Origin: Bacteroidota bacterium
GTDB lineage: Bacteria; Bacteroidota; Bacteroidia; B-17B0; Aurantibacillaceae
Direction: 5' to 3'
Length of the DNA stretch: 64,000 nucleotides
Assembly (NCBI GenBank): GCA_021323535.1
Contig: JAJONO010000001.1
Coordinates: forward strand, 1 to 64,000
In this document: positions 5,305 through 44,006 of the stretch, in pieces
Position numbering within the stretch: position 1 is the first letter of the stretch
How the letters are laid out: the number at the start of each line of letters is the position of its first letter
Made by a program: the position numbers and the translations under genes
Notes under the pieces: model-generated
Databases searched by the model: none
Told to the model about the DNA's origin: nothing
The model's input: the letters and a program-made list of their open reading frames with translations, nothing else

Positions 5305-7554
5305 CTACTTATCAACCAAAATCACCTTACCCATTCCAACTACTTTACCATCCTGCATTAACTGAACAAAGTACAATCCATTCGAAAGATTGTCTCTTGA
5401 GATGGTAAAACTTTTACCAGACACATTGTCGATTTGTTTTACAGATTGCCCGTATAAATTATAAACCATACACGAAGCATTTTTTAAAACGAATCCTGAT
5501 TGTATAGTGACTTTCTCTGAAAACGGATTCGGATAAATAAATAACTTATTCTCATTGGTAATTTGCATTTCTTTAATAGTGGTTGCCAGGCTCATTTCTT
5601 TTTTCACCAGTTCAATATCATCTATTCCCAGTGCTCCTAATGTACTTGTTCCGGTACCGCCAAACGAAAACTGAAGTAGTTCAATCTTGCTAAGGTCAAG
5701 CTGCGTGCCATTAACAAGAAAATCTTTAAGGCGTATGCGAATGGTGCAGAATTCGTTTTGCCAGCCTCCCTCACGCTGGTAAGTTTGAATGACCGGACTA
5801 TACAAGGCTGTGATCACTGAAGAACTCTTCGCGGCTTCATCGGTGAAAGAAACCATAAAATTAATGGAAGTATCAAGTGTAACATTAAATGGATGTTGTG
5901 TTCTCTGACATGCACGCAAGCTAAGAAACTCGTAACCTGAAAAATCTTTAAGCGAATCCGGAATAGTGTAACTTATATAACCAGGACTGTTCCATTCAAC
6001 GACGAGACAATGTGGCGAATCAGTGAATCGCGCGCGCGTCATGCCGTTGGCAGCATTACCAGGAGTGAATGATCCATCAACATCTTTCATCAGAATTTCA
6101 GAAGAGTTCACAAGATTGGTTGTAACTATCGCGCTGCTGCTGGAAAGATTTAATGACGTATTTGTTTCAAAATCATCAATCACTCTTTTACCTGACAACT
6201 GGCTCTCGCGACATTCATTGGAAATAACAACTGAGTCATTCGTATTCATAGGACGATACTCCGAATAACTACGTGTGAAAAATTCTTTACCTGCATTATT
6301 TTGCTTGCAGTACAATTCCGACATGGCAAGAACGTATCCTTTTACCAATGGATGAAGCTGGGCACGGCTAACAAGATTTGGACCACTTGCCCATTCCCAG
6401 GCGGACACATCATTATGAAACACACCATGTCCCGCCCCATGAACATACATCACATGTTTATTGCCTGTTCCTCGTTCGTAAATGGTCATTGGCTGTGTAT
6501 AATTGTCTATTGGCATTCCGGAAACATCTGTATCAGCGCCCCCTATAAACTGATGATAGTTTATGCTGTAAGGATTAACTTCCGTAACAGAGAGCCACGC
6601 CACCGGGCAGATGCTATTAATATATTTCACATCGCCCCAGGCAAAATAAGCAGAGGAAATTTCGTTATTATGTAAGCGTGTATATGCCCGCACAGGAGTT
6701 TCTCCCCCGGTGCTATGCCCCATCCAGCCCATACGATGATGATCAATTTTTCCATTAAGCACTCCACTAAATAAAGTATCCTGGTTACCCAAAAGATGAT
6801 TGATATTAGCGATCAGTGAAAGAGATGCCAGTTGCGTTCCCCCGGGCCCACCATTACTTACATCGTTGTGGTGCGACATAACAATGTAACCATAAGAGGC
6901 AAGGTGCGAACCGATATAATCGTAGTAAGCATAATTGTGTGTCCACCCATGAGAAATAACAATCAACGGAAGCGAATCCATGCTCGCAATGTTCGACGGA
7001 TACCATATACGTTTAGTCAGGTAAGTTGTTTGGGTCCAATCAATAGTTGTAACCGGTAGCGAACCCAGTTGGGCCAAATCATGCAAAACGTAAAAGCCGG
7101 CGCCGTCTCCTCCATCAATGTAATCTGCAGATGAAAGAATTCCATTATTGTCCATGTCTATCACTACATCATACCCAACTCCTATTCCTGGTCCATTATA
7201 CGCGATAAGTTCATTTGCCGCAGTAAGCTGTAGAATGTTCTGCTGAATACTATCATTGGAAAACGTAAAAGATTGTTTACCGCCACTCGTTATATCCAGT
7301 AAGGTGTTATTTAATGCCCATTGACTTGCCGATTTATCTGCTACTACATAAACATCTGCAGTGATATTGTCAATGGCAGGATAAAGTTTTCCGTCGATTG
7401 CAAGATTGACTTTCTGATCACCATTAAAATTCTGAACGAAATGAAAGTGAGGAAACTTCATTGAGGGTTTGCCCGCGAGTTCCACTTCGGTTTGCGCGAA
7501 ACATATCGACGTTAACAGAATGACAGATAATAAAAGAAGTAGCTGTTTTTTCAT
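5305..7554 (-). CDS. Secreted alpha/beta hydrolase with T9SS sorting tail
   Basis: This 749-aa protein begins with the signal peptide MKKQLLLLLSVILLTSICFA. An alpha/beta-hydrolase core spans roughly residues 180-420: LIVISHGWTHNYAYYDYIGS is an oxyanion-strand-like segment, WMGHSTGGETPVRAY is the GxSxG nucleophile elbow, and HVMYVHGAGHGVFHND probably carries the catalytic histidine. The fold resembles PAF-acetylhydrolase/cutinase-like lipases. A beta-rich region (about 470-650, carbohydrate-binding or jelly-roll-like) precedes a T9SS sorting domain starting near FIYPNPFSEKVTI. It is probably exported and acts outside the cell on an ester substrate that cannot be identified from sequence. Confidence 0.85.
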   Translation of the reverse strand: MKKQLLLLLSVILLTSICFAQTEVELAGKPSMKFPHFHFVQNFNGDQKVNLAIDGKLYPAIDNITADVYVVADKSASQWALNNTLLDITSGGKQSFTFSNDSIQQNILQLTAANELIAYNGPGIGVGYDVVIDMDNNGILSSADYIDGGDGAGFYVLHDLAQLGSLPVTTIDWTQTTYLTKRIWYPSNIASMDSLPLIVISHGWTHNYAYYDYIGSHLASYGYIVMSHHNDVSNGGPGGTQLASLSLIANINHLLGNQDTLFSGVLNGKIDHHRMGWMGHSTGGETPVRAYTRLHNNEISSAYFAWGDVKYINSICPVAWLSVTEVNPYSINYHQFIGGADTDVSGMPIDNYTQPMTIYERGTGNKHVMYVHGAGHGVFHNDVSAWEWASGPNLVSRAQLHPLVKGYVLAMSELYCKQNNAGKEFFTRSYSEYRPMNTNDSVVISNECRESQLSGKRVIDDFETNTSLNLSSSSAIVTTNLVNSSEILMKDVDGSFTPGNAANGMTRARFTDSPHCLVVEWNSPGYISYTIPDSLKDFSGYEFLSLRACQRTQHPFNVTLDTSINFMVSFTDEAAKSSSVITALYSPVIQTYQREGGWQNEFCTIRIRLKDFLVNGTQLDLSKIELLQFSFGGTGTSTLGALGIDDIELVKKEMSLATTIKEMQITNENKLFIYPNPFSEKVTIQSGFVLKNASCMVYNLYGQSVKQIDNVSGKSFTISRDNLSNGLYFVQLMQDGKVVGMGKVILVDK

Positions 7555-7683: not shown

Positions 7684-10134
7684 TTAAAAATCCACCTTCA
7701 CATAAAACAAAGGCAGAAAACCTAACTGGTAATTTTTAACGAGAGGATCGGCTGTAAGATCGGCAGGATCGGGAGAATAACTTAAAGCCAGAACATTTCG
7801 CGCACTTAAAACATTCACGAGATCCAGCGCTATTTCTGTTCCAACCCGTTTAGAATTTATTTTGTAAGATACTCTTAAATCGAGACGGTTATACGGATCA
7901 AATTGCAATGTATTTACTTTATCATTCTGGGCCACTACATCCATAATAGCGTTGCTAGCCGCAATGTTAACAGGAGAATAAAGTTTTCCGCCGCCATAAG
8001 TAAACTTAGTTCCAAAACTCAGAATATTCTTTTTGCTTTTTCCAATGTTGTACTCGAGTCCGCCCAATAAATTCATCATGTAATTTCCATTGAAATCTGT
8101 GTTATGTTCTACACCATCGCTGCCAACGTATTTACTTTCGAACAGACTACCGCTGTACATAAAAAAATAATGCTTGTGAAACACTTTCTCTATAGTGAAT
8201 TCAATCCCGTAGTTATAACCTGTTCCGTTATTAGCCATAGAATATGTTGGAAAGAAACGGCTGAACGTAGCCCCCCTGTTAAGCATTGACACGCTGGAAG
8301 AAACCTGGTAAACAGGTACGTTCCATAAATACTGGTAATATACTTCCGTTTTTAATTTCAGATATTTTGTAACGAGATAATCGTGAGCCAAAACAAAATG
8401 CTGACTTTTTGTAAAATCAAGGTCCATGTTCGCTAATTCTCTTTTCGTATTCGGCACCAACACATTATTGCTAACTATACTATCGGGCACAGCGAAATAA
8501 AGATAGGTCTGCTGCATCTGGCTATGCAAACCATAAGCAAAGCTTAACGACTGATTAGAAACGAACTGATATTTTAAACCTGCTCTTGGTTCAATTGTAT
8601 ATTTGTTATTGAGTGTAACATATTGCGAAAGTACACCGGCATTAAAGCTGAGCTTCCCGTTGAATTTATGCGTATAACTTACGTAAGGTTGTGCGAGATA
8701 AAAACTGCTGATGTTGTTTATCCTTGTCTTGAACGCTTTGTTATTTATGACCTGGGCAATGGTATCATATAAGGAGTTCACTTTTACGCTGTCGCTAAAG
8801 TTTACATCTATCCTGTTAATGAAAAATCCATATTTAATACTGTTCTTCGAATTGAGTTTGCTTTTAATGAACCACGACAATGTTGTTTTTCCTTCATAGA
8901 AACGATAACGTAAAATGTGTGGTAAGGTATCTTTCGGAATAAAATCCTTGTTTCGTAAAATAAGATAATGATCTGTTCTTACAGTTTGAACACCGTACGC
9001 AAGGCTTGTTTTCATAACTGTTCTGCTATTGAAACCATATGTGTGATTTAAAATTCCAACGCCCATGTTGGTACCAAAATATTGGTCGCGGTTAAGATCG
9101 CCGTAAAGTTCACTTGGACGTTCATAGGTTTTACTTAAAATAATTTTCACCTCACTTAAACCACCAATACCAGTAAAACTGAATACACCGGCTTTCTTTG
9201 TTGGAAAATTTAATCGTATGCCTAGGTCCTGATAAAAAGGAACCGCACTTGAACCAATATTGAATTTTACTTCATTGAACAGGGCCAGTGTTGAATAACG
9301 GTAAGACACGAGATAACTTGCCCCGCTTTTTTTACTGATCGGTCCTTCGAGGGCTAACTCGGTTCCCAGAAATCCGAACTGGAAAGTGCGTTCATGTTTT
9401 TCGTTATTTCCATTTCGCATTTTTAAATCGAAAACCCCGCCAAGAGCATTTCCGTAATTGGCAGGAAAAGCGCCGGTATAAAATTCGCTGTTGGCAAGAT
9501 ATTTATTGTTGATAAGGCTTTGTGGCCCACCTGCTGAACCCGGAACCGCAAAGTGATTCGGATTAGGAATATCAATTTCTTCGAGGCGCCACAACAAACC
9601 GGCAGGACTGTTTCCCCTCACCACAATATCGTTTCTGGAATCGTTCGTTCCCTGGATACCCGCAAAGTTAGCAGCCATTCGGGCCGGGTCGCTTCTTGAT
9701 CCGGGATAACGCTCAGTTTCTTCAATGCTGAACGCTTTCATACTCACCGATTGCATGGTGTTCACTACATCAGTATCCGAAGATGCTTTAACTTCCACTT
9801 CAGTCATTGAAATAGTATTCTCTTCCATTTCAACATTCACAATCATTTCTTTCCCAGAAGTAACGATCACGTCGTTTACCGGCATTGATTTATAACTGGT
9901 GAACGTAAACAAAAACGATTGTCTTCCAACAGGCACATTGAGTAATTTGTAATTTCCATTCTCATCGGAAGTTGAAGCAATGGTGATGGCAGAATTTTTT
10001 AACTGAACAATGACGCCGGGGAGTCCGATGCCGATTTCTTTATCCGTAATTTTTCCCTTGACGGTTTGGGTCAATTGTCCGAAAACAACATTGGAAATAA
10101 GAACAAGTAATAAATAATGCTTTTTAAAAATCAT
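7684..10134 (-). CDS. TonB-dependent receptor with carboxypeptidase-regulatory-like domain
   Basis: The product is about 816 aa. After a signal peptide (MIFKKHYLLLVLISNVVFGQ) come a CarboxypepD_reg-like domain (TVKGKITDKEIGIGLPGVIV, about 25-105), a plug domain (about 130-240, with FAGIQGTNDSRNDIVVRGNS) and a long beta-barrel ending in FYVKVDF, whose C-terminal Phe is typical of outer-membrane barrels. It probably imports a large or complexed substrate across the outer membrane using TonB energy. No SusD partner is adjacent, which argues against a standard polysaccharide locus. A TTG at 10140 gives a two-residue longer form; the ATG at 10134 is preferred. Confidence 0.9.
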   Translation of the reverse strand: MIFKKHYLLLVLISNVVFGQLTQTVKGKITDKEIGIGLPGVIVQLKNSAITIASTSDENGNYKLLNVPVGRQSFLFTFTSYKSMPVNDVIVTSGKEMIVNVEMEENTISMTEVEVKASSDTDVVNTMQSVSMKAFSIEETERYPGSRSDPARMAANFAGIQGTNDSRNDIVVRGNSPAGLLWRLEEIDIPNPNHFAVPGSAGGPQSLINNKYLANSEFYTGAFPANYGNALGGVFDLKMRNGNNEKHERTFQFGFLGTELALEGPISKKSGASYLVSYRYSTLALFNEVKFNIGSSAVPFYQDLGIRLNFPTKKAGVFSFTGIGGLSEVKIILSKTYERPSELYGDLNRDQYFGTNMGVGILNHTYGFNSRTVMKTSLAYGVQTVRTDHYLILRNKDFIPKDTLPHILRYRFYEGKTTLSWFIKSKLNSKNSIKYGFFINRIDVNFSDSVKVNSLYDTIAQVINNKAFKTRINNISSFYLAQPYVSYTHKFNGKLSFNAGVLSQYVTLNNKYTIEPRAGLKYQFVSNQSLSFAYGLHSQMQQTYLYFAVPDSIVSNNVLVPNTKRELANMDLDFTKSQHFVLAHDYLVTKYLKLKTEVYYQYLWNVPVYQVSSSVSMLNRGATFSRFFPTYSMANNGTGYNYGIEFTIEKVFHKHYFFMYSGSLFESKYVGSDGVEHNTDFNGNYMMNLLGGLEYNIGKSKKNILSFGTKFTYGGGKLYSPVNIAASNAIMDVVAQNDKVNTLQFDPYNRLDLRVSYKINSKRVGTEIALDLVNVLSARNVLALSYSPDPADLTADPLVKNYQLGFLPLFYVKVDF

Positions 10135-38375: not shown

Positions 38376-40226
38376 ATGAGTTATCTGGACATACCCCGAA
38401 TTCACATGGCCGGTGCATTTTTCACCGATCCATCGACAGTAAACAATGATCCTACACATTACGACCCCACTTGCACAAACCCCTCACCCTGGCAGGAGCC
38501 AAACGGCCAGCACCGTTTCCAGCTCCGCGATTGTTCAGTAATGTCGGTAATGGGACCCACTGGCCCGGCAAGCAGCGACCCGTTAGTTGGCGCTTCAGTT
38601 ACCTGTATTGAACCTTTTGGTGCAGCGCGGTTGGTTGACCTTGATGTTTATCAGCAGGGTGTTCCAACTATTTTTGGAATGAATGTACAAATCACATTAC
38701 CCGACGGTACTTTCGTGAAAGGTGCTATGGATGCGGCAACACTGAACGGACTCTGGTTTAACGCCGTATTACCAACACGTGACTGGGGTGGCGATTATGG
38801 AATGGACAGTTATGGCGGCGACATGAACGCCTGCGGATATTTTGTAACTGTTATACGTGTGAAGCCCGCTGACTGGACCAACACATCATCGCCAATGTTA
38901 CAGCAACTAAAGAGTTCAACGATTACGGATGCGAATGGTAACTACATGATCTCTTTTAAATTTGTAACCGATGCTTATGAAAACGTTCCGCAAAATGCGA
39001 AGTATCGCCTCGGAAGAATTATCGGAGCATTTGGTCCCTTAAAAGTAAACGAACCACTTTATAATGCGGGAAAGCGTTGGATGCAACCACGTCCTTTTGC
39101 AGATACCGATCCATGGTTCTATCCTTCATTCAACCCGTGTATCTACACTGTTGATACAACACGAAATAAATTAGTCATCGATCTTTCGAATAGTATCTGT
39201 CGTCAGTCTGCCGGAGGACCGCCTGTTGATCTTGGAACGCTGAACGCAGTTGTAACTTATAACGGCACCGAAACTCAGATCGGCACTGTTGATTATTCGG
39301 ATTTTTGTTATAATAACAATGCGCACATTGCCGAAATTGATATATCCCCGGCTATCATATCACTGATTCAGCAAGGCGGGGTAAGTCTCGTTACAAGTCG
39401 CAATGATATTGGAAACCAAAGCGTCCTTTTTGAGCAAAACACTTCCGTACCGGTTGAATACGCGGTTGAAGTTCGTCCGGTTCGCATGCCTGGCGCACCA
39501 GGTACAACTGCTACAACTAAAGTATATGTTTCGAAAGGTGGTGTTCCAGTTGTTGGAAAACAAATGTCGCTTGCGATTGAAAGCGTTCATGGAAACACGC
39601 CGGGTGCAACTGTTGCCCCTACCAACCCGGGTAACACAAACGACAATGCATTAACCGCTGCCATTTCAACAACAGATGCCAATGGTTATGCTACTATTAC
39701 ATTAACTATCGCCAACGATCCTGGTCAGAGGACACCATGGCTCGACGGACAATTATATTTTGTCATAGTATATGATCCGAATCATCCTGATCCATACTGG
39801 CTAAAAAATGCACCTATACAGGAACATCTCGTTTCTGTCATCACGTTTTCAGATTATCCTGTCAACAAAACACCACAGTGGCAGGAAATCCAGAACATGA
39901 TGATGCCGTATGTGAAATTATATCCTTCTATGAAGGCGCAGATCGATCTTACCGACCTGCACACATTCACTATCTTCTCAATGAACCCGCCTTGGGACAG
40001 AGTGTATGGACCAACAACACCTCCGGGCCCGTTAGGAATTACAGCAGGAGCAATTCCTTATTACATGTCGCGTGATTTCAATGATCCCCGCTTTATGCCT
40101 ATATCGCGTGATCTTTCGCCTAATAAAATATTAACGTTAATGTATTACGTACAATATTTGCAGCAAAATCCTCCTCCTGCAGGAACAACTACAATGCCAT
40201 CAAAACCTAATAACATTAAAAGCTGA
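38376..40226 (+). CDS. Uncharacterised 616-aa protein, start MSYLDIPRIHMAGAFF
   Basis: I do not recognise a characterised family. There is no signal peptide or membrane helix. The N-terminal half contains distinctive segments (IPRIHMAGAFFTDPSTVNND and VLPTRDWGGDYGMDSYGGDM). A beta-sandwich, Ig-like insert (about 365-450: TTKVYVSKGGVPVVGKQMSL, then TTDANGYATITLTI) is followed by a proline-rich, possibly helical end (DPRFMPISRDLSPNKILTLM). The gene has its own promoter box and operator-like repeats, and the next gene starts 2 nt after its stop, so the two form one unit ending at a strong terminator. Cytoplasmic or non-classically secreted location is inferred. Confidence 0.75.
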   Translation: MSYLDIPRIHMAGAFFTDPSTVNNDPTHYDPTCTNPSPWQEPNGQHRFQLRDCSVMSVMGPTGPASSDPLVGASVTCIEPFGAARLVDLDVYQQGVPTIFGMNVQITLPDGTFVKGAMDAATLNGLWFNAVLPTRDWGGDYGMDSYGGDMNACGYFVTVIRVKPADWTNTSSPMLQQLKSSTITDANGNYMISFKFVTDAYENVPQNAKYRLGRIIGAFGPLKVNEPLYNAGKRWMQPRPFADTDPWFYPSFNPCIYTVDTTRNKLVIDLSNSICRQSAGGPPVDLGTLNAVVTYNGTETQIGTVDYSDFCYNNNAHIAEIDISPAIISLIQQGGVSLVTSRNDIGNQSVLFEQNTSVPVEYAVEVRPVRMPGAPGTTATTKVYVSKGGVPVVGKQMSLAIESVHGNTPGATVAPTNPGNTNDNALTAAISTTDANGYATITLTIANDPGQRTPWLDGQLYFVIVYDPNHPDPYWLKNAPIQEHLVSVITFSDYPVNKTPQWQEIQNMMMPYVKLYPSMKAQIDLTDLHTFTIFSMNPPWDRVYGPTTPPGPLGITAGAIPYYMSRDFNDPRFMPISRDLSPNKILTLMYYVQYLQQNPPPAGTTTMPSKPNNIKS

Positions 40227-40228
40227 TT

Positions 40229-41803
40229 ATGAAATTTAAATTTTTAAAATTAAGCGCGGCAGCCCTCTTTACTGTAGCGTTTACACAATGTAATGATACA
40301 CCTCAGGAAGGATCGGGTAACGGCCAACCTAAAGACACCACTTCTACTACACATACTTTACCTCCGAATGCAAAAGACAGCGTATTTCCTTACACCCTGG
40401 AATTTGTTCCTAAAACCTATTCAGGAAAACCACTACCGTGTCTGCAATCCTACCAGGCTGCAGTTGCTTCTGATGGATCGTTTCTTATCGTAAGCGGACG
40501 CCGACAAGGTTTACATACGTTCATGGGAGCGCCTGCTACTAATTTCGTAAAAGACAGCGCGAATAATTATTTATTCGTTATTGATCCTGTGAGTGGCAAT
40601 CAATGGTCATTTAATGTGAACCAGCTTTCAGGAAAATATTCCGCTCCTTTAAAATCTACAAACGCGCAAAGTTGTTTCGACAGATCAACAGGCCAGATGT
40701 ATTTTGTTGGTGGTTATGGATGGAAAGCCGACAGCAGCGATATGGTAACATTTGGCACTATTATGCGTTTTAATGTAGACTCAATGGTTAAAGCTATTAA
40801 GGCCGGCGCCAATGCTGCAAAAATTACAAGTCTGATAGAAATAGATTCGGATGACCGCTTCGCAGTTACCGGTGGAGAATTGTTTAATATGAACGGCCAG
40901 TTTTATCTCGTGTTCGGACAGAAATTCACGGGCCAGTATCGGGCTTTTGGCGGAACTGATTTTACACAAAAATACAATGAACAAGTTGCTGTGTTTACTT
41001 TAAAGCCTAACACATTAAAAATTCTTGGTTATGGTACAACTACAAACAACGAACCTGGAAGACCATTTCACAGGAGAGACGGAAACATCATAGATGATCT
41101 TGATCCTGCAACGGGTCAGGCCCGCATTACCGCGTTTGGCGGTGTTTTCCAGCCGGGTATCATCGGTGCTTACACGTATCCGATCTTCATTAATAGTCCT
41201 GCCGCTCCTACTCTTAATAGAAATGTGAATCAGAAATTCAGTCAGTATGAATGCCCTGTAATTTCGGTTTATGATAGTAGTGCCTCTAATCAATCTATTT
41301 ACAGAACTTTTTTCGGAGGAATTGGTCATTACTATTATTACCAGACGCCTTCTCAAAAAGCGATCTATGATACAGCAACTCACCAGGGACGTAACGATGG
41401 ATTCCCTTTCCTGGAAGACATTACAACCTGGGTTGAAAAAGCAGGTCCTGCAGGTGGAGCTTCAACATGGACCGAATGGATCCACGTGGATCCTGTTCCC
41501 GGAAATCGCCTCTTAGGTGCCACTGCTCCGTTTCTTGTAACACCAGCGATGTTCACACAAGGGATGGTTTATGAAAATGGTATTGTTAACCTTTCAAAGT
41601 TCCAGAAGAATACAAAAACACTGATCGGATATATCTATGGGGGGATTGAAGCACAGAACCCGCTTCCGTATCATCCTAATACAGGAACATTTGTATCTAA
41701 CACCGTGTTTGAAGTATATCTCAACTATACGCCTGCTCCTGGAATTCCTTCAAGCGAAGCTCATGAAAGCACGAAAAGCGATGCGAATATGCAGAGGAAA
41801 TAA
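40229..41803 (+). CDS. Kelch-like beta-propeller lipoprotein, uncharacterised
   Basis: This 524-aa protein has a lipoprotein-like signal (AAALFTVAFTQC followed by NDTPQEG) and a Thr/Ser linker. The body has repeated GG-containing strands such as MYFVGGYGWKADS, ITAFGGVFQPGI, YRTFFGGIGHYYYY and IGYIYGGIEAQ, compatible with a kelch-like or galactose-oxidase-like propeller. No catalytic residues can be assigned. It follows the 616-aa gene by 2 nt and is surely cotranscribed; an envelope partner of that protein is inferred. A perfect terminator hairpin follows. Confidence 0.75.
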   Translation: MKFKFLKLSAAALFTVAFTQCNDTPQEGSGNGQPKDTTSTTHTLPPNAKDSVFPYTLEFVPKTYSGKPLPCLQSYQAAVASDGSFLIVSGRRQGLHTFMGAPATNFVKDSANNYLFVIDPVSGNQWSFNVNQLSGKYSAPLKSTNAQSCFDRSTGQMYFVGGYGWKADSSDMVTFGTIMRFNVDSMVKAIKAGANAAKITSLIEIDSDDRFAVTGGELFNMNGQFYLVFGQKFTGQYRAFGGTDFTQKYNEQVAVFTLKPNTLKILGYGTTTNNEPGRPFHRRDGNIIDDLDPATGQARITAFGGVFQPGIIGAYTYPIFINSPAAPTLNRNVNQKFSQYECPVISVYDSSASNQSIYRTFFGGIGHYYYYQTPSQKAIYDTATHQGRNDGFPFLEDITTWVEKAGPAGGASTWTEWIHVDPVPGNRLLGATAPFLVTPAMFTQGMVYENGIVNLSKFQKNTKTLIGYIYGGIEAQNPLPYHPNTGTFVSNTVFEVYLNYTPAPGIPSSEAHESTKSDANMQRK

Positions 41804-41879: not shown

Positions 41880-42460
41880 AAATTCAAAATTTTGAATTAA
41901 AAATGTATATAAAGCCTTTGATCGCTTTTCTTTCTTCCTTGATGAAGAAAGAAACAAAGAAATCAAGGCTGCAAATAAATTCCTTGATTTGAAGTTTTTG
42001 ATTTTTTGTAGTCGCCTGCGAACTTGTCCCGCCTCTTTTTGCTTCCAGCGGGACTTCGAACAACGGAGGCTCGCGAAAAGCCATTGCTAAATACAAAACC
42101 AGCTAAATGCAAGGACTTTCCGATGTCTCGAAAAATCAAAAACACAAATCATACGGAATTTCTTTGAGGCCGAAGTGTCGACGCTCACCAGAACTCAAAA
42201 ACTCAGCGGTTAGTCGGTTGTCGAACTGTTTTTTGGCCTTTTGCAGAAATAGATGTGATCAAGCTTTCGAAGCCGCTTGCGGCCTTACGGCTTGATCAGC
42301 ATCGCCGCGCCCGACTGAACAACGTTCGGGCGGGGTTTTTCTTTCGCTGTCTCTACCTTGCGAAAGAAAAATTTCCCACAAAATGGCCAAAAGCGTTTTG
42401 CCTACTTTTTCGCGTGAAAAGTAGAATGAAGTTTCAAATCGTTTTTTCTATTTTCTTGAT
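41880..42460. other. Structured non-coding region without supportable genes
   Basis: No reading frame here looks like protein, although several chance frames are open. The DNA holds nested short inverted repeats: CTTTCTTCC-ttgat-GAAGAAAG near 41930, GCCCGA...TCGGGC at about 42309-42331 followed by GGGGTTTTTC, CTTTCGC...GCGAAAG at about 42350, and CTACTTTTT-cgcg-TGAAAAGTAG at about 42400. The pattern resembles a dispersed Bacteroidota intergenic element or a structured RNA. No coding or RNA family can be assigned from the sequence alone. Confidence 0.4.
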
Positions 42461-42491
42461 AAAAAAAGCCACTCTTTCGAGCAGCTTTTTT
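42461..42491 (-). terminator. Intrinsic terminator of the 46-aa gene
   Basis: On the minus strand AAAAAAGC pairs with GCTTTTTT around an inner CTC-GAAA-GAG stem-loop with a GAAA tetraloop. A T run follows directly. It is placed 24 nt after the stop of the small gene at 42515. Confidence 0.65.
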
Positions 42492-42514: not shown

Positions 42515-42655
42515 CTAAGATTTTACTAATTCTTTAAGGTTCTTAAGGTATGGAGCCACACACTCTTTAAGATCTTCAAGAGAATTAATTTTTAACTGTT
42601 TTGCAACTGCGTAGAGGATTGCTCCACCGGCAGCCACTATTAATATCGTTTTCAT
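42515..42655 (-). CDS. 46-aa small protein, copy 1 of a tandem pair
   Basis: The peptide has a hydrophobic N-terminal segment (ILIVAAGGAILYAVAKQ) and an amphipathic, lysine/leucine-rich C-terminal helix (INSLEDLKECVAPYLKNLKE). It is about 58 percent identical over 45 residues to the product of the adjacent gene at 42744. The shared core is AGGxILYxVAK, KINSLxDLK and the P-x-LK motif. Conservation at protein level between two copies, plus a terminator after each, is good evidence of coding. The family is unknown to me. It could be a membrane-associated micropeptide or a phasin-like helix. Confidence 0.7.
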   Translation of the reverse strand: MKTILIVAAGGAILYAVAKQLKINSLEDLKECVAPYLKNLKELVKS

Positions 42656-42666
42656 TTTTACATTCT

Positions 42667-42699
42667 TTTAAAAACCGCCCCAGACTAATCCGGAGCGGC
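42667..42699 (-). terminator. Intrinsic terminator of the 45-aa gene
   Basis: On the minus strand CCGCTCC pairs with GGGGCGG (one G-U) around a 10-nt loop, followed by TTTTTAAAA. It lies between the two small tandem genes, so each copy seems to have its own transcript end. Confidence 0.65.
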
Positions 42700-42743
42700 T
42701 TATTTTCTTTAACACTTTTTTCTTTAGGGTGTCAGCCTTTTAT

Positions 42744-42881
42744 TTATTTAATCAATGCGCTTAGTTCTTTCAATTGTGGTCCAACCACTTTTTTAAGATC
42801 TGTCAGTGAATTGATTTTAAAATGCTTTGCGACCTGGTAAAGAATCACTCCACCTGCGGTCAATAAAATAAGATTTTTCAT
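42744..42881 (-). CDS. 45-aa small protein, copy 2 of a tandem pair
   Basis: This is a tandem paralogue of the 46-aa gene. The N-terminal hydrophobic segment is LILLTAGGVILYQVAKH and the C-terminal amphipathic helix is INSLTDLKKVVGPQLKELSA. The copies differ in many codons while the peptide motif is kept, which suggests purifying selection rather than a recent DNA repeat. The intergenic spacer holds a terminator. No partner gene is adjacent apart from the DUF2911 gene on the opposite strand. The role is unknown. Confidence 0.7.
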   Translation of the reverse strand: MKNLILLTAGGVILYQVAKHFKINSLTDLKKVVGPQLKELSALIK

Positions 42882-43148
42882 AACTATTAAATTTAAGAAC
42901 TGTTTTCTACTATAAAGTTAAGCATTATCCGTGCCCGTTCTCCATGTTATCGGTCAGCCGGGAAATAGCGTCGTTAAAGGGATACAAGCTTTGTGTAAAT
43001 TGTTTTTTATAAAATTTTGTACAAAAAGCCCGTGGAAATACGATCCCGGAATGAAGTTAAAAAAGGGTTATTTTTTCAACGAAAACTGTTTTATTTAATT
43101 CATTAATTCTATTTTAGAGCTTTAATTCATTTACAAAAATTAACCACT

Positions 43149-44006
43149 ATGATAAACTTTACAAAACGAATGGCTCTTACAGTTGCGGCAGTAAGCACAA
43201 TTGCAACCGCGAGCATGAATGCACAGCAATTAAAAACTCCGGCGCCGAGTCCGCTTCAAACAATCAAACAAGCTTTTGCTTTAACGGATGTTACAGTTGA
43301 ATATTCTCGTCCTGGTGCAAAAGGACGTACAGTTTATGGCGACGTTGTTCCATTTGGAAAAACGTGGAGAACAGGCGCAAACGGCGCTACAAAGATCACC
43401 TTTGGTGAAGACGTAAAAATTGAAGGAAACGATCTTAAGGCCGGAACATATGCACTATACTCTGTTCCCAATAAAGATTCGTGGGATATTATGTTTTACA
43501 AAGATCTTACCTTAGGTGGCGATGTAGGCAGCTACAAAGCAGAGAATGAAGTTTTAAAAGTTAAAGTAAAACCTCAGTCAGTTTCCGATAATATGGAAAC
43601 ATTCACTATTCAGTTTGATGATGTTAAACCTACAACCATGAATGTTTCGTTGGTTTGGGAAAAAACAAAAGTGTCATTCGGCATAAAAGCTGATATTGAT
43701 ACTAAAATCATGGCCAACATTGAAAAAGTAATGGCAGCAGACGCTCGTCCATATTATTCAGCTGCGAGCTACTATTACGAAAACGATAAAGATTTGAAAC
43801 AAGCATTAACATGGATCGACAAAGCAGCGGAAATTAATCCTAAAGCATACTGGGTAGTGACTTTAAAAGCGAAGATCCAACTCAAAATGAAAGACAATAA
43901 AGGAGCCACTGAAACAGCGAACAAAGCAATGACCCTTGCTAAAGCTGATGGCGATGATGCTTATGTGAAGATCAATGAGAAAATTTTAGCGGACGCTAAG
44001 AAATAG
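43149..44006 (+). CDS. DUF2911 domain-containing secreted protein
   Basis: This 285-aa protein has a signal peptide (MALTVAAVSTIATASMNA region) and a DUF2911 domain (about 35-185) with DVTVEYSRPGAKGRTVYGDV, VPFGKTWRTGANGATKITF and AGTYALYSVPNKDSWDIMF. A C-terminal helical TPR-like extension (about 190-285, LKQALTWIDKAAEINPKAYW) follows. DUF2911 proteins are common periplasmic or outer-membrane proteins of Bacteroidota without an assigned activity. It is monocistronic, with a terminator after the stop. Confidence 0.88.
   Translation: MINFTKRMALTVAAVSTIATASMNAQQLKTPAPSPLQTIKQAFALTDVTVEYSRPGAKGRTVYGDVVPFGKTWRTGANGATKITFGEDVKIEGNDLKAGTYALYSVPNKDSWDIMFYKDLTLGGDVGSYKAENEVLKVKVKPQSVSDNMETFTIQFDDVKPTTMNVSLVWEKTKVSFGIKADIDTKIMANIEKVMAADARPYYSAASYYYENDKDLKQALTWIDKAAEINPKAYWVVTLKAKIQLKMKDNKGATETANKAMTLAKADGDDAYVKINEKILADAKK

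Follow-up and report, generated by a model that had tools for sequence, protein, structure and literature searches.

Tandem micropeptide genes of a Bacteroidota bacterium belong to a conserved family with a common promoter design

What are two very short open reading frames (ORFs), lying one behind the other on the minus strand of a Bacteroidota genome, likely to do for their host? They stand in a stretch of 64,000 nucleotides (positions 1 to 64,000 of contig JAJONO010000001.1, assembly GCA_021323535.1), here called the window. The promoter-proximal ORF, gene 1 (42744-42881, -), opens with ATG and encodes 45 amino acids (aa), and gene 2 (42515-42655, -) opens with ATG and encodes 46 aa, both exactly where a preliminary description of the sequence had placed them. 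The two peptides are 58% identical, and no other copy was found in the 5.3 Mb genome. In a tree built from 45 columns, which resolves little beyond this one grouping, genes 1 and 2 pair together with support of 94/85; the pair is not among the tree's starred forks, and the end branches measure 0.052 (short) for gene 1 and 0.9 for gene 2. The pair looks like the product of a duplication within its own lineage, the 46-mer being the paralogue that has changed faster.

Comparison of the two copies identifies the ORFs as real conserved genes. Between them, 25 of the 44 aligned codons after the ATG keep their residue, against a mean of 15.3 and a maximum of 22 when the same number of random base changes was applied to the sequence (none of 300 simulations reached the observed value), in keeping with the earlier claim that the protein is conserved despite divergence of the DNA. 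The proportions of synonymous and nonsynonymous differences (pS and pN) are 0.71 and 0.27, and the ratio of nonsynonymous to synonymous substitution rates (dN/dS), which the preliminary description had proposed to examine, is about 0.16 with dS near saturation. The wider family described below is clearly under purifying selection, with pooled dN/dS of 0.06-0.42 or saturated synonymous sites. The pooled values are 0.14, 0.20 and 0.27 for array types A, B and C, 0.42 for type D (one pair), 0.24 for f21-i and 0.06 for f21-ii, where two of three pairs are saturated; f21-iii saturates on pooling, with one pair of three giving 0.17, and the pair L068-L069 also gives 0.17. In every one of the nine sets, judged on the first three pairs per set, more residues are identical than in any of the 300 simulations, although pairs within one set are not independent.

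Counting the window's own, 12 genomes from two orders hold relatives that keep the reading frame, with 37 matches in total. With the 45-mer as query against 60 related genomes, tandem clusters appeared in three other genomes of the genus (17 of the 60 match at E<=1, mostly at chance level). A profile of 19 rows (A1) reached 6 of 40 genomes of the genus at E<=0.01, four strongly and two marginally (E 0.005-0.008, not counted), and 7 of 87 genomes of the order, which consists of one family, f1, at E<=0.001. In a class sample it matched 3 of 395 genomes, among them the window's own and one from another order (G429; genome and locus handles are our own). In that second order, whose genes are labelled f21 below, 5 of 36 genomes match, and the same number do so with a second profile (A2) made from the alignment of 34 peptides; A2 also matched 5 of 395 genomes in the class sample, two of them weakly (E 0.004-0.005, within long frames), and in a phylum sample 1 of 395 genomes matched, again the window's own. 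The class and phylum figures come from at most 17 candidates scored per genome, so misses are possible. Of the 37 matches, 35 genes were analysed, L091 and L096 being left out as they lie at contig ends; the alignment holds 34 peptides because it omits a truncated copy of type D from G016.

In the window's genus the genes form tandem arrays of two to four copies whose types keep a fixed order. We call these types A (GGAALYQ), B (YLGIALIRE), C (MTIGVALLRQ) and D (LYAVAR/LYQVAKxYNI). The array of G003 reads A-B-C-D; G016 has A-B and A-B-C-D, with the D copy cut to 32 aa; and G029 has B-C-D, A-B-C and one single gene. On the contig of the G029 B-C-D array there are also a DUF2911 gene and an SSF transporter resembling the window's; a kinase, a response regulator, a BrkB gene and a holin-like gene lie in between. 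In other f1 genera (G081, G097, G101) the peptide genes are single within the flanks examined, and in f21 three recurrent contexts take 10 of the 13 matches; in one of these contexts three genomes keep a single copy flanked by genes that by eye are MsrA-like and pseudouridine-synthase-like. About 3.4 kb from one peptide array, at L033:11159-12115, a PAS_3 domain is fused to an extracytoplasmic function (ECF)-type sigma factor.

The suspicion that such small frames are chance ORFs or decaying fragments, to which their size, the truncated G016 copy and one family-type promoter site (L034:8757) with no recognisable peptide gene behind it lend some colour, has next to no probability left. Selection, frame-keeping homologues in 12 genomes and the promoter and start-site signatures described below all speak against it, and the conservation tests already refute it. 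The preliminary description, which had made homologues keeping the frame a test of its reading, is supported in calling these functional paralogous micropeptides.

It was also right that no known family comes to mind: Pfam, NCBIfam, PHROGs, PADLOC and PDB sequences gave nothing credible for the peptides. In Pfam the 45-mer has no family at E<=1, and the single match of the 46-mer, to an unrelated domain, is at chance level (E 0.065, below the cut-off). We rejected a phage holin identity, the best PHROGs matches reaching E 0.052 only (one of them to a holin family, for one array member) with no match in phages or viral contigs; a mobile origin was rejected likewise, as phages (46-mer query), plasmids and viral contigs (one array member as query for each) yielded no match. 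A literature search found no paper on the family, most subscription journals being outside its reach.

The peptides share a cationic layout of a short hydrophobic helix, an INS hinge and an amphipathic helix, without signal sequence, as far as alignment and modelling allow. Across the 34 aligned peptides M1 is invariant and K2, A18 and K19 are each conserved in 90% or more. All 34 have a net charge (K+R minus D+E) between +2 and +8; the longest stretch free of charged and N/Q/H residues measures 11-16 in 33 peptides and 8 in the remaining one, and in 31 the second helix has a hydrophobic moment of at least 0.30. An AlphaFold2 model predicts helices at 2-20 and 26-44 with a gap at INS. The apolar N-terminal helix of the window peptides covers 12 and 16 residues with positive residues on both sides and, being short and positively flanked, would sit in or on the membrane rather than cross it in the classical way. 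Association with a membrane is, on this modelled layout, quite probable.

A short hydrophobic helix with an amphipathic tail would also suit a small accessory subunit of a membrane complex or transporter encoded elsewhere, in the style of CydX or CcoQ, and single-copy genes retained in the recurrent f21 contexts could be read in the same way. We consider this improbable. The contexts offer no recurring partner gene: they comprise BrkB, holin-like and PAS kinase genes, arsenic-type and aquaporin genes (by eye), the MsrA-like and pseudouridine-synthase-like pair, and a LytTR locus. Neither Pfam nor PDB sequences gave a credible match.

Most family members share one promoter architecture. Upstream of gene 1 lies a -7 box with its start region, TAACTTTATAGTAG (42907-42920, -), whose leave-one-out profile score is 34.8; with a weight matrix of all rows, it is the sole site above 17 on either strand of the window, and none was found in 20 window shuffles. 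A TAnnTTT(A/G) box, of the form TAnCTTT(A/G), stands 30-60 nt upstream in 21 of the 35 genes, and its last base is mostly A (15/21). Ungapped alignment on the box brings out two half-sites, at -62..-53 and -41..-28, which in the window are direct repeats with cores AACGA and ACCGA, 21 bp apart (42948-42982, -). The upstream stretch matches itself at a shift of 21 with a value of 0.379, against 0.256 in shuffles (0 of 1000 reach it), and the period holds in each subset: the eight array genes (0/1000), the window gene with five single f1 genes (3/1000) and seven f21 genes (1/1000). As a control, 89 other genes of the analysed loci with the same box give 0.295, and a value as high as the family's arose in only 2 of 20000 resampled sets.

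This spacing resembles that of the binding sites of LytTR regulators: direct repeats of 9 bp close to the upstream side of the promoter, for the most part with a gap of 12 bp and so a period of 21 (PMC6193735). Taken as a set, the 21 of 35 genes with the box show this period, in line with the two direct repeats, 11-13 bp apart and at a fixed distance upstream of the box, that are expected of LytTR-controlled promoters. A scan for a regulon in 20 stretches of the window's genome (373,061 bases, about 7%), with the L095 row dropped from the matrix, found one weak site (11.6). Other examined loci hold five further sites above 17, two each at L072 and L068 and one at L034. At L072:4616-4760 a strong family-type promoter (40.8) precedes a very short transcript: a hairpin comes some 130 nt on, and the only ORF there is short and unrelated. 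A DUF6799 gene beside it has a weaker site (22.4). Two 45-46 aa CxxC ORFs stand behind family-type sites at L068:6048-6185 and 6445-6585 (20.1, 19.8), one of them weakly zinc ribbon-like, below cut-off. The L034 site is the one at 8757 mentioned above.

The two window genes probably form one transcription unit. A hairpin with a U run, terminator or attenuator, lies between them (42670-42701, -; predicted -23.9 kcal/mol, z -3.6) and another, a predicted terminator, after gene 2 (42460-42491, -; -20.0 kcal/mol, z -4.5); a simple terminator scan lists neither, probably because the T runs lie within the stem. Gene 2 starts 16 nt past the first hairpin and has no promoter box of its own, and is therefore probably reached by read-through in a unit with an internal hairpin. 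The preliminary description had given each gene its own terminator: a strong hairpin does follow each, but that of the 45-mer sits between the genes, so they are not two independent units. The gene-hairpin-gene layout recurs in the arrays; the RNA within 90 nt after the gene is at least 2 sd more stable than shuffles in 27 of 35 genes, and a simple hairpin-plus-T rule passes 28 of the 35, though not all of them convincingly. At the start of translation, A is found at -11 in 34 of the 35 genes, at -12 in 33, at -13 in 29 and at -3 in 27, and a Shine-Dalgarno-like motif, by the expression used, in one. This start is Bacteroidota-like, yet A at -6, as reported for Flavobacterium (PMC6847099), occurs in only 10 of 35.

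Short hairpin-bounded units, peptide size, a hydrophobic N-terminal helix and tandem copies also bring to mind type I toxin-antitoxin loci, in which short hydrophobic toxins would be silenced by antisense RNAs. We regard this as very unlikely here: the second helix is conserved as well, PADLOC, NCBIfam and Pfam show no known toxin family, and the common activator-type promoter together with the fixed array order points to positive regulation instead.

Which factor, then, would act at the paired sites? The G429 peptide gene has one LytTR response-regulator gene 71 bp from its end and lies 1.1 kb from a second, with a Reg_prop/His_kinase sensor adjoining these regulators; two LytTR domains lie within 2 kb of a random position on that contig in 0.3% of cases (computed post hoc). 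The same f21 context (ii) has two LytTR response regulators beside the gene in G476 as in G429, and one in G478. A second thread is a protein of 98-105 aa that begins METxELVRKA, shows by eye two hydrophobic segments and matches nothing in Pfam (L034:7319-7636, L032:7887-8183, L033:16649-16951, L145:8514-8816). Its gene follows three of the arrays; strong matches fall in exactly the four peptide-bearing genomes of the 40 in the genus and in none of the other 36 (Fisher 1.1e-5 for strong matches, 1.6e-4 for any match, kinship ignored). In the window's genome it lies between two LytTR/His_kinase pairs, together with a YceI gene and a long ORF. From these sequence features we infer a LytTR-type response regulator as the activating factor with about even confidence; the assignment is an inferred one because few family genes adjoin a LytTR gene and the co-occurrence is uncorrected for shared ancestry.

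The same two-segment protein could be read as an immunity protein, were the peptides secreted or released to disturb other membranes, as leaderless-bacteriocin-like or PSM (phenol-soluble modulin)-like antagonists or surfactants under LytTR-type control as a density or stress switch. Small cationic peptides without signal sequence, in tandem paralogues whose copy number varies between genomes, would fit, and promoters of this type control such peptides in Firmicutes (PMC6193735, PMC4227749). Against export, no peptide-processing ATP-binding cassette (ABC) exporter was recognised beside the genes (by eye, neighbours scanned in part), the G003 array being followed by a permease of the major facilitator superfamily (MFS) type (by eye). 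The 98-105 aa protein did not turn up in the flanks examined for L035, the single genes and f21, and its gene in the window's genome is on a different contig from the pair. The single f21 copy in its MsrA-like setting is also unlike a bacteriocin locus. We judge secretion unlikely; for the proposal that the peptides are not exported but work on the envelope of the cell that makes them, the chances are roughly balanced.

We propose that the window pair encodes membrane-associated peptide effectors of a LytTR-type response, a reading drawn from sequence features to which we give a little less than an even chance. Genes 1 and 2 would be one short transcription unit, activated when a transcription factor, most likely a LytTR-type response regulator, binds the tandem pair of sites, spaced at 21 bp, that precedes the -7 box. 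The unit would make cationic helix-hinge-helix peptides without signal sequence, whose apolar N-terminal helix would dock in or on the inner membrane while the amphipathic second helix lies along its surface. Once the two-component system is triggered, the peptides would target either the membrane itself or a membrane protein. The internal hairpin may pass only part of the transcripts to gene 2 and so yield unequal amounts of the paralogues; such graded read-through might hold or fail with equal ease.

Several observations weigh against this proposal. The structure model is only modest in confidence (mean predicted local distance difference test score, pLDDT, 68.5; predicted template modelling score, pTM, 0.32), and the apolar helix is short for membrane crossing, the best 19-residue mean hydropathy exceeding 1.6 in 5 of 34 peptides only. 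The box is missing from 14 of 35 genes, namely ten internal genes (window gene 2 included) and four f21 genes with a different element; the latter, upstream of the L084, L088, L089 and L092 peptide genes, have a sigma54-like TGGCA...GG-N10-G(A/C) element by eye. Among genes with the box, L095 fits the matrix badly (leave-one-out -26.7), and L072 (9.8) and L093 (15.5) weakly. Across the nine genomes searched, a LytTR domain lies within 2 kb of only 3 of 32 family genes, all in one f21 context, and of 0 of the other 29; the array contigs (G003, G016, G029) list none, and the sole LytTR domain on the window's contig is about 74 kb from the pair. LytTR genes are also frequent, with 6 to 32 in each genome, which makes their adjacency no more than suggestive. 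Read in reverse complement as TCGTTnA, the half-site is near the LytTR consensus, the likeness (by eye) being a loose one. The 98-105 aa gene has no family-type promoter in the copies examined, the L095 row again being dropped for this check; two of the other 36 genus genomes have distant homologues without peptides, and the four genomes that share the gene may simply be one clade.

The surroundings of the pair differ in part from what had been described. The DUF2911 gene (43149-44006, +), said to lie opposite the peptide genes, is divergent, 267 bp off and without overlap. The adjacent non-coding region called structured (41880-42450) turns out to be a repeat dispersed through the genome: there are 12 matches, the window copy counted, and five of them, again counting it, exceed 290 bases; another copy lies on the same contig at 66109-66592. 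Beyond it, 38376-41803 holds two adjoining same-strand ORFs of 616 and 524 aa; the former has sub-threshold Pfam matches only, and the latter (40229-41803) has a lipoprotein-like start by eye and no Pfam match at E<=1. The common promoter design, the one-unit layout and the repeat character of this region go beyond the preliminary description.

LytTR regulators are numerous in these Bacteroidota genomes, and a defined promoter with its peptide family offers a concrete target set; a literature search by title for LytTR in Bacteroidetes gave nothing on small-peptide targets there. The family adds a selected, unannotated group of small proteins to two little-known uncultured lineages, and illustrates that promoter and start-site signatures can serve, alongside coding conservation, to recognise such families. 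A broader idea, which we consider doubtful, is a Bacteroidota peptide-effector system of tandem-expanded cationic micropeptides, driven by LytTR through 21-bp-spaced sites and membrane-active like Firmicutes PSMs or bacteriocins, in which the co-occurring 98-105 aa protein might serve as partner or immunity factor.

How do these genes compare with known systems? Small membrane stress proteins and small complex subunits such as CydX have fewer than 65 aa, a short hydrophobic helix and no place in annotation families. All this is true of the window family, which differs in its tandem arrays, its amphipathic second helix and the lack of any conserved partner gene found. Bacteroidota sigma-A promoters have -33 TTTG and -7 TAnnTTTG elements (PMC9723704, PMC6847099), to which the family's TAnCTTT(A/G) box and A-rich start region correspond; here, however, the box ends mostly in A, and a fixed-distance repeat pair replaces a -33 TTTG, none being evident by eye. 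Streptococcal bacteriocin promoters of the LytTR Regulatory Systems resemble those of the family in that they drive small peptide genes and are closely preceded by two direct repeats with a gap of about 12 bp (PMC6193735). In contrast to them, no GG leader or processing transporter was recognised here, the repeat sequence is another, and the -7 box is that of Bacteroidota.

Staphylococcal PSM-beta peptides, about 44-45 residues long, are encoded as tandem paralogues and lack a signal sequence. They come under AgrA, a LytTR regulator that directly activates psm-alpha and psm-beta (PMC4227749). No PSM family matched in Pfam (45-mer at E<=1; 46-mer at chance level only) or above cut-off in NCBIfam, the comparison being with family profiles only and not a direct PSM alignment. 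The phylum is also a different one and no Agr-type locus was recognised beside the window-family genes, and we do not claim membership. The likeness lies in tandem paralogues of about 45 residues without signal sequence behind a direct-repeat promoter, and by analogy PSM-beta under AgrA would be the nearest working counterpart of the window pair, in logic rather than in descent.
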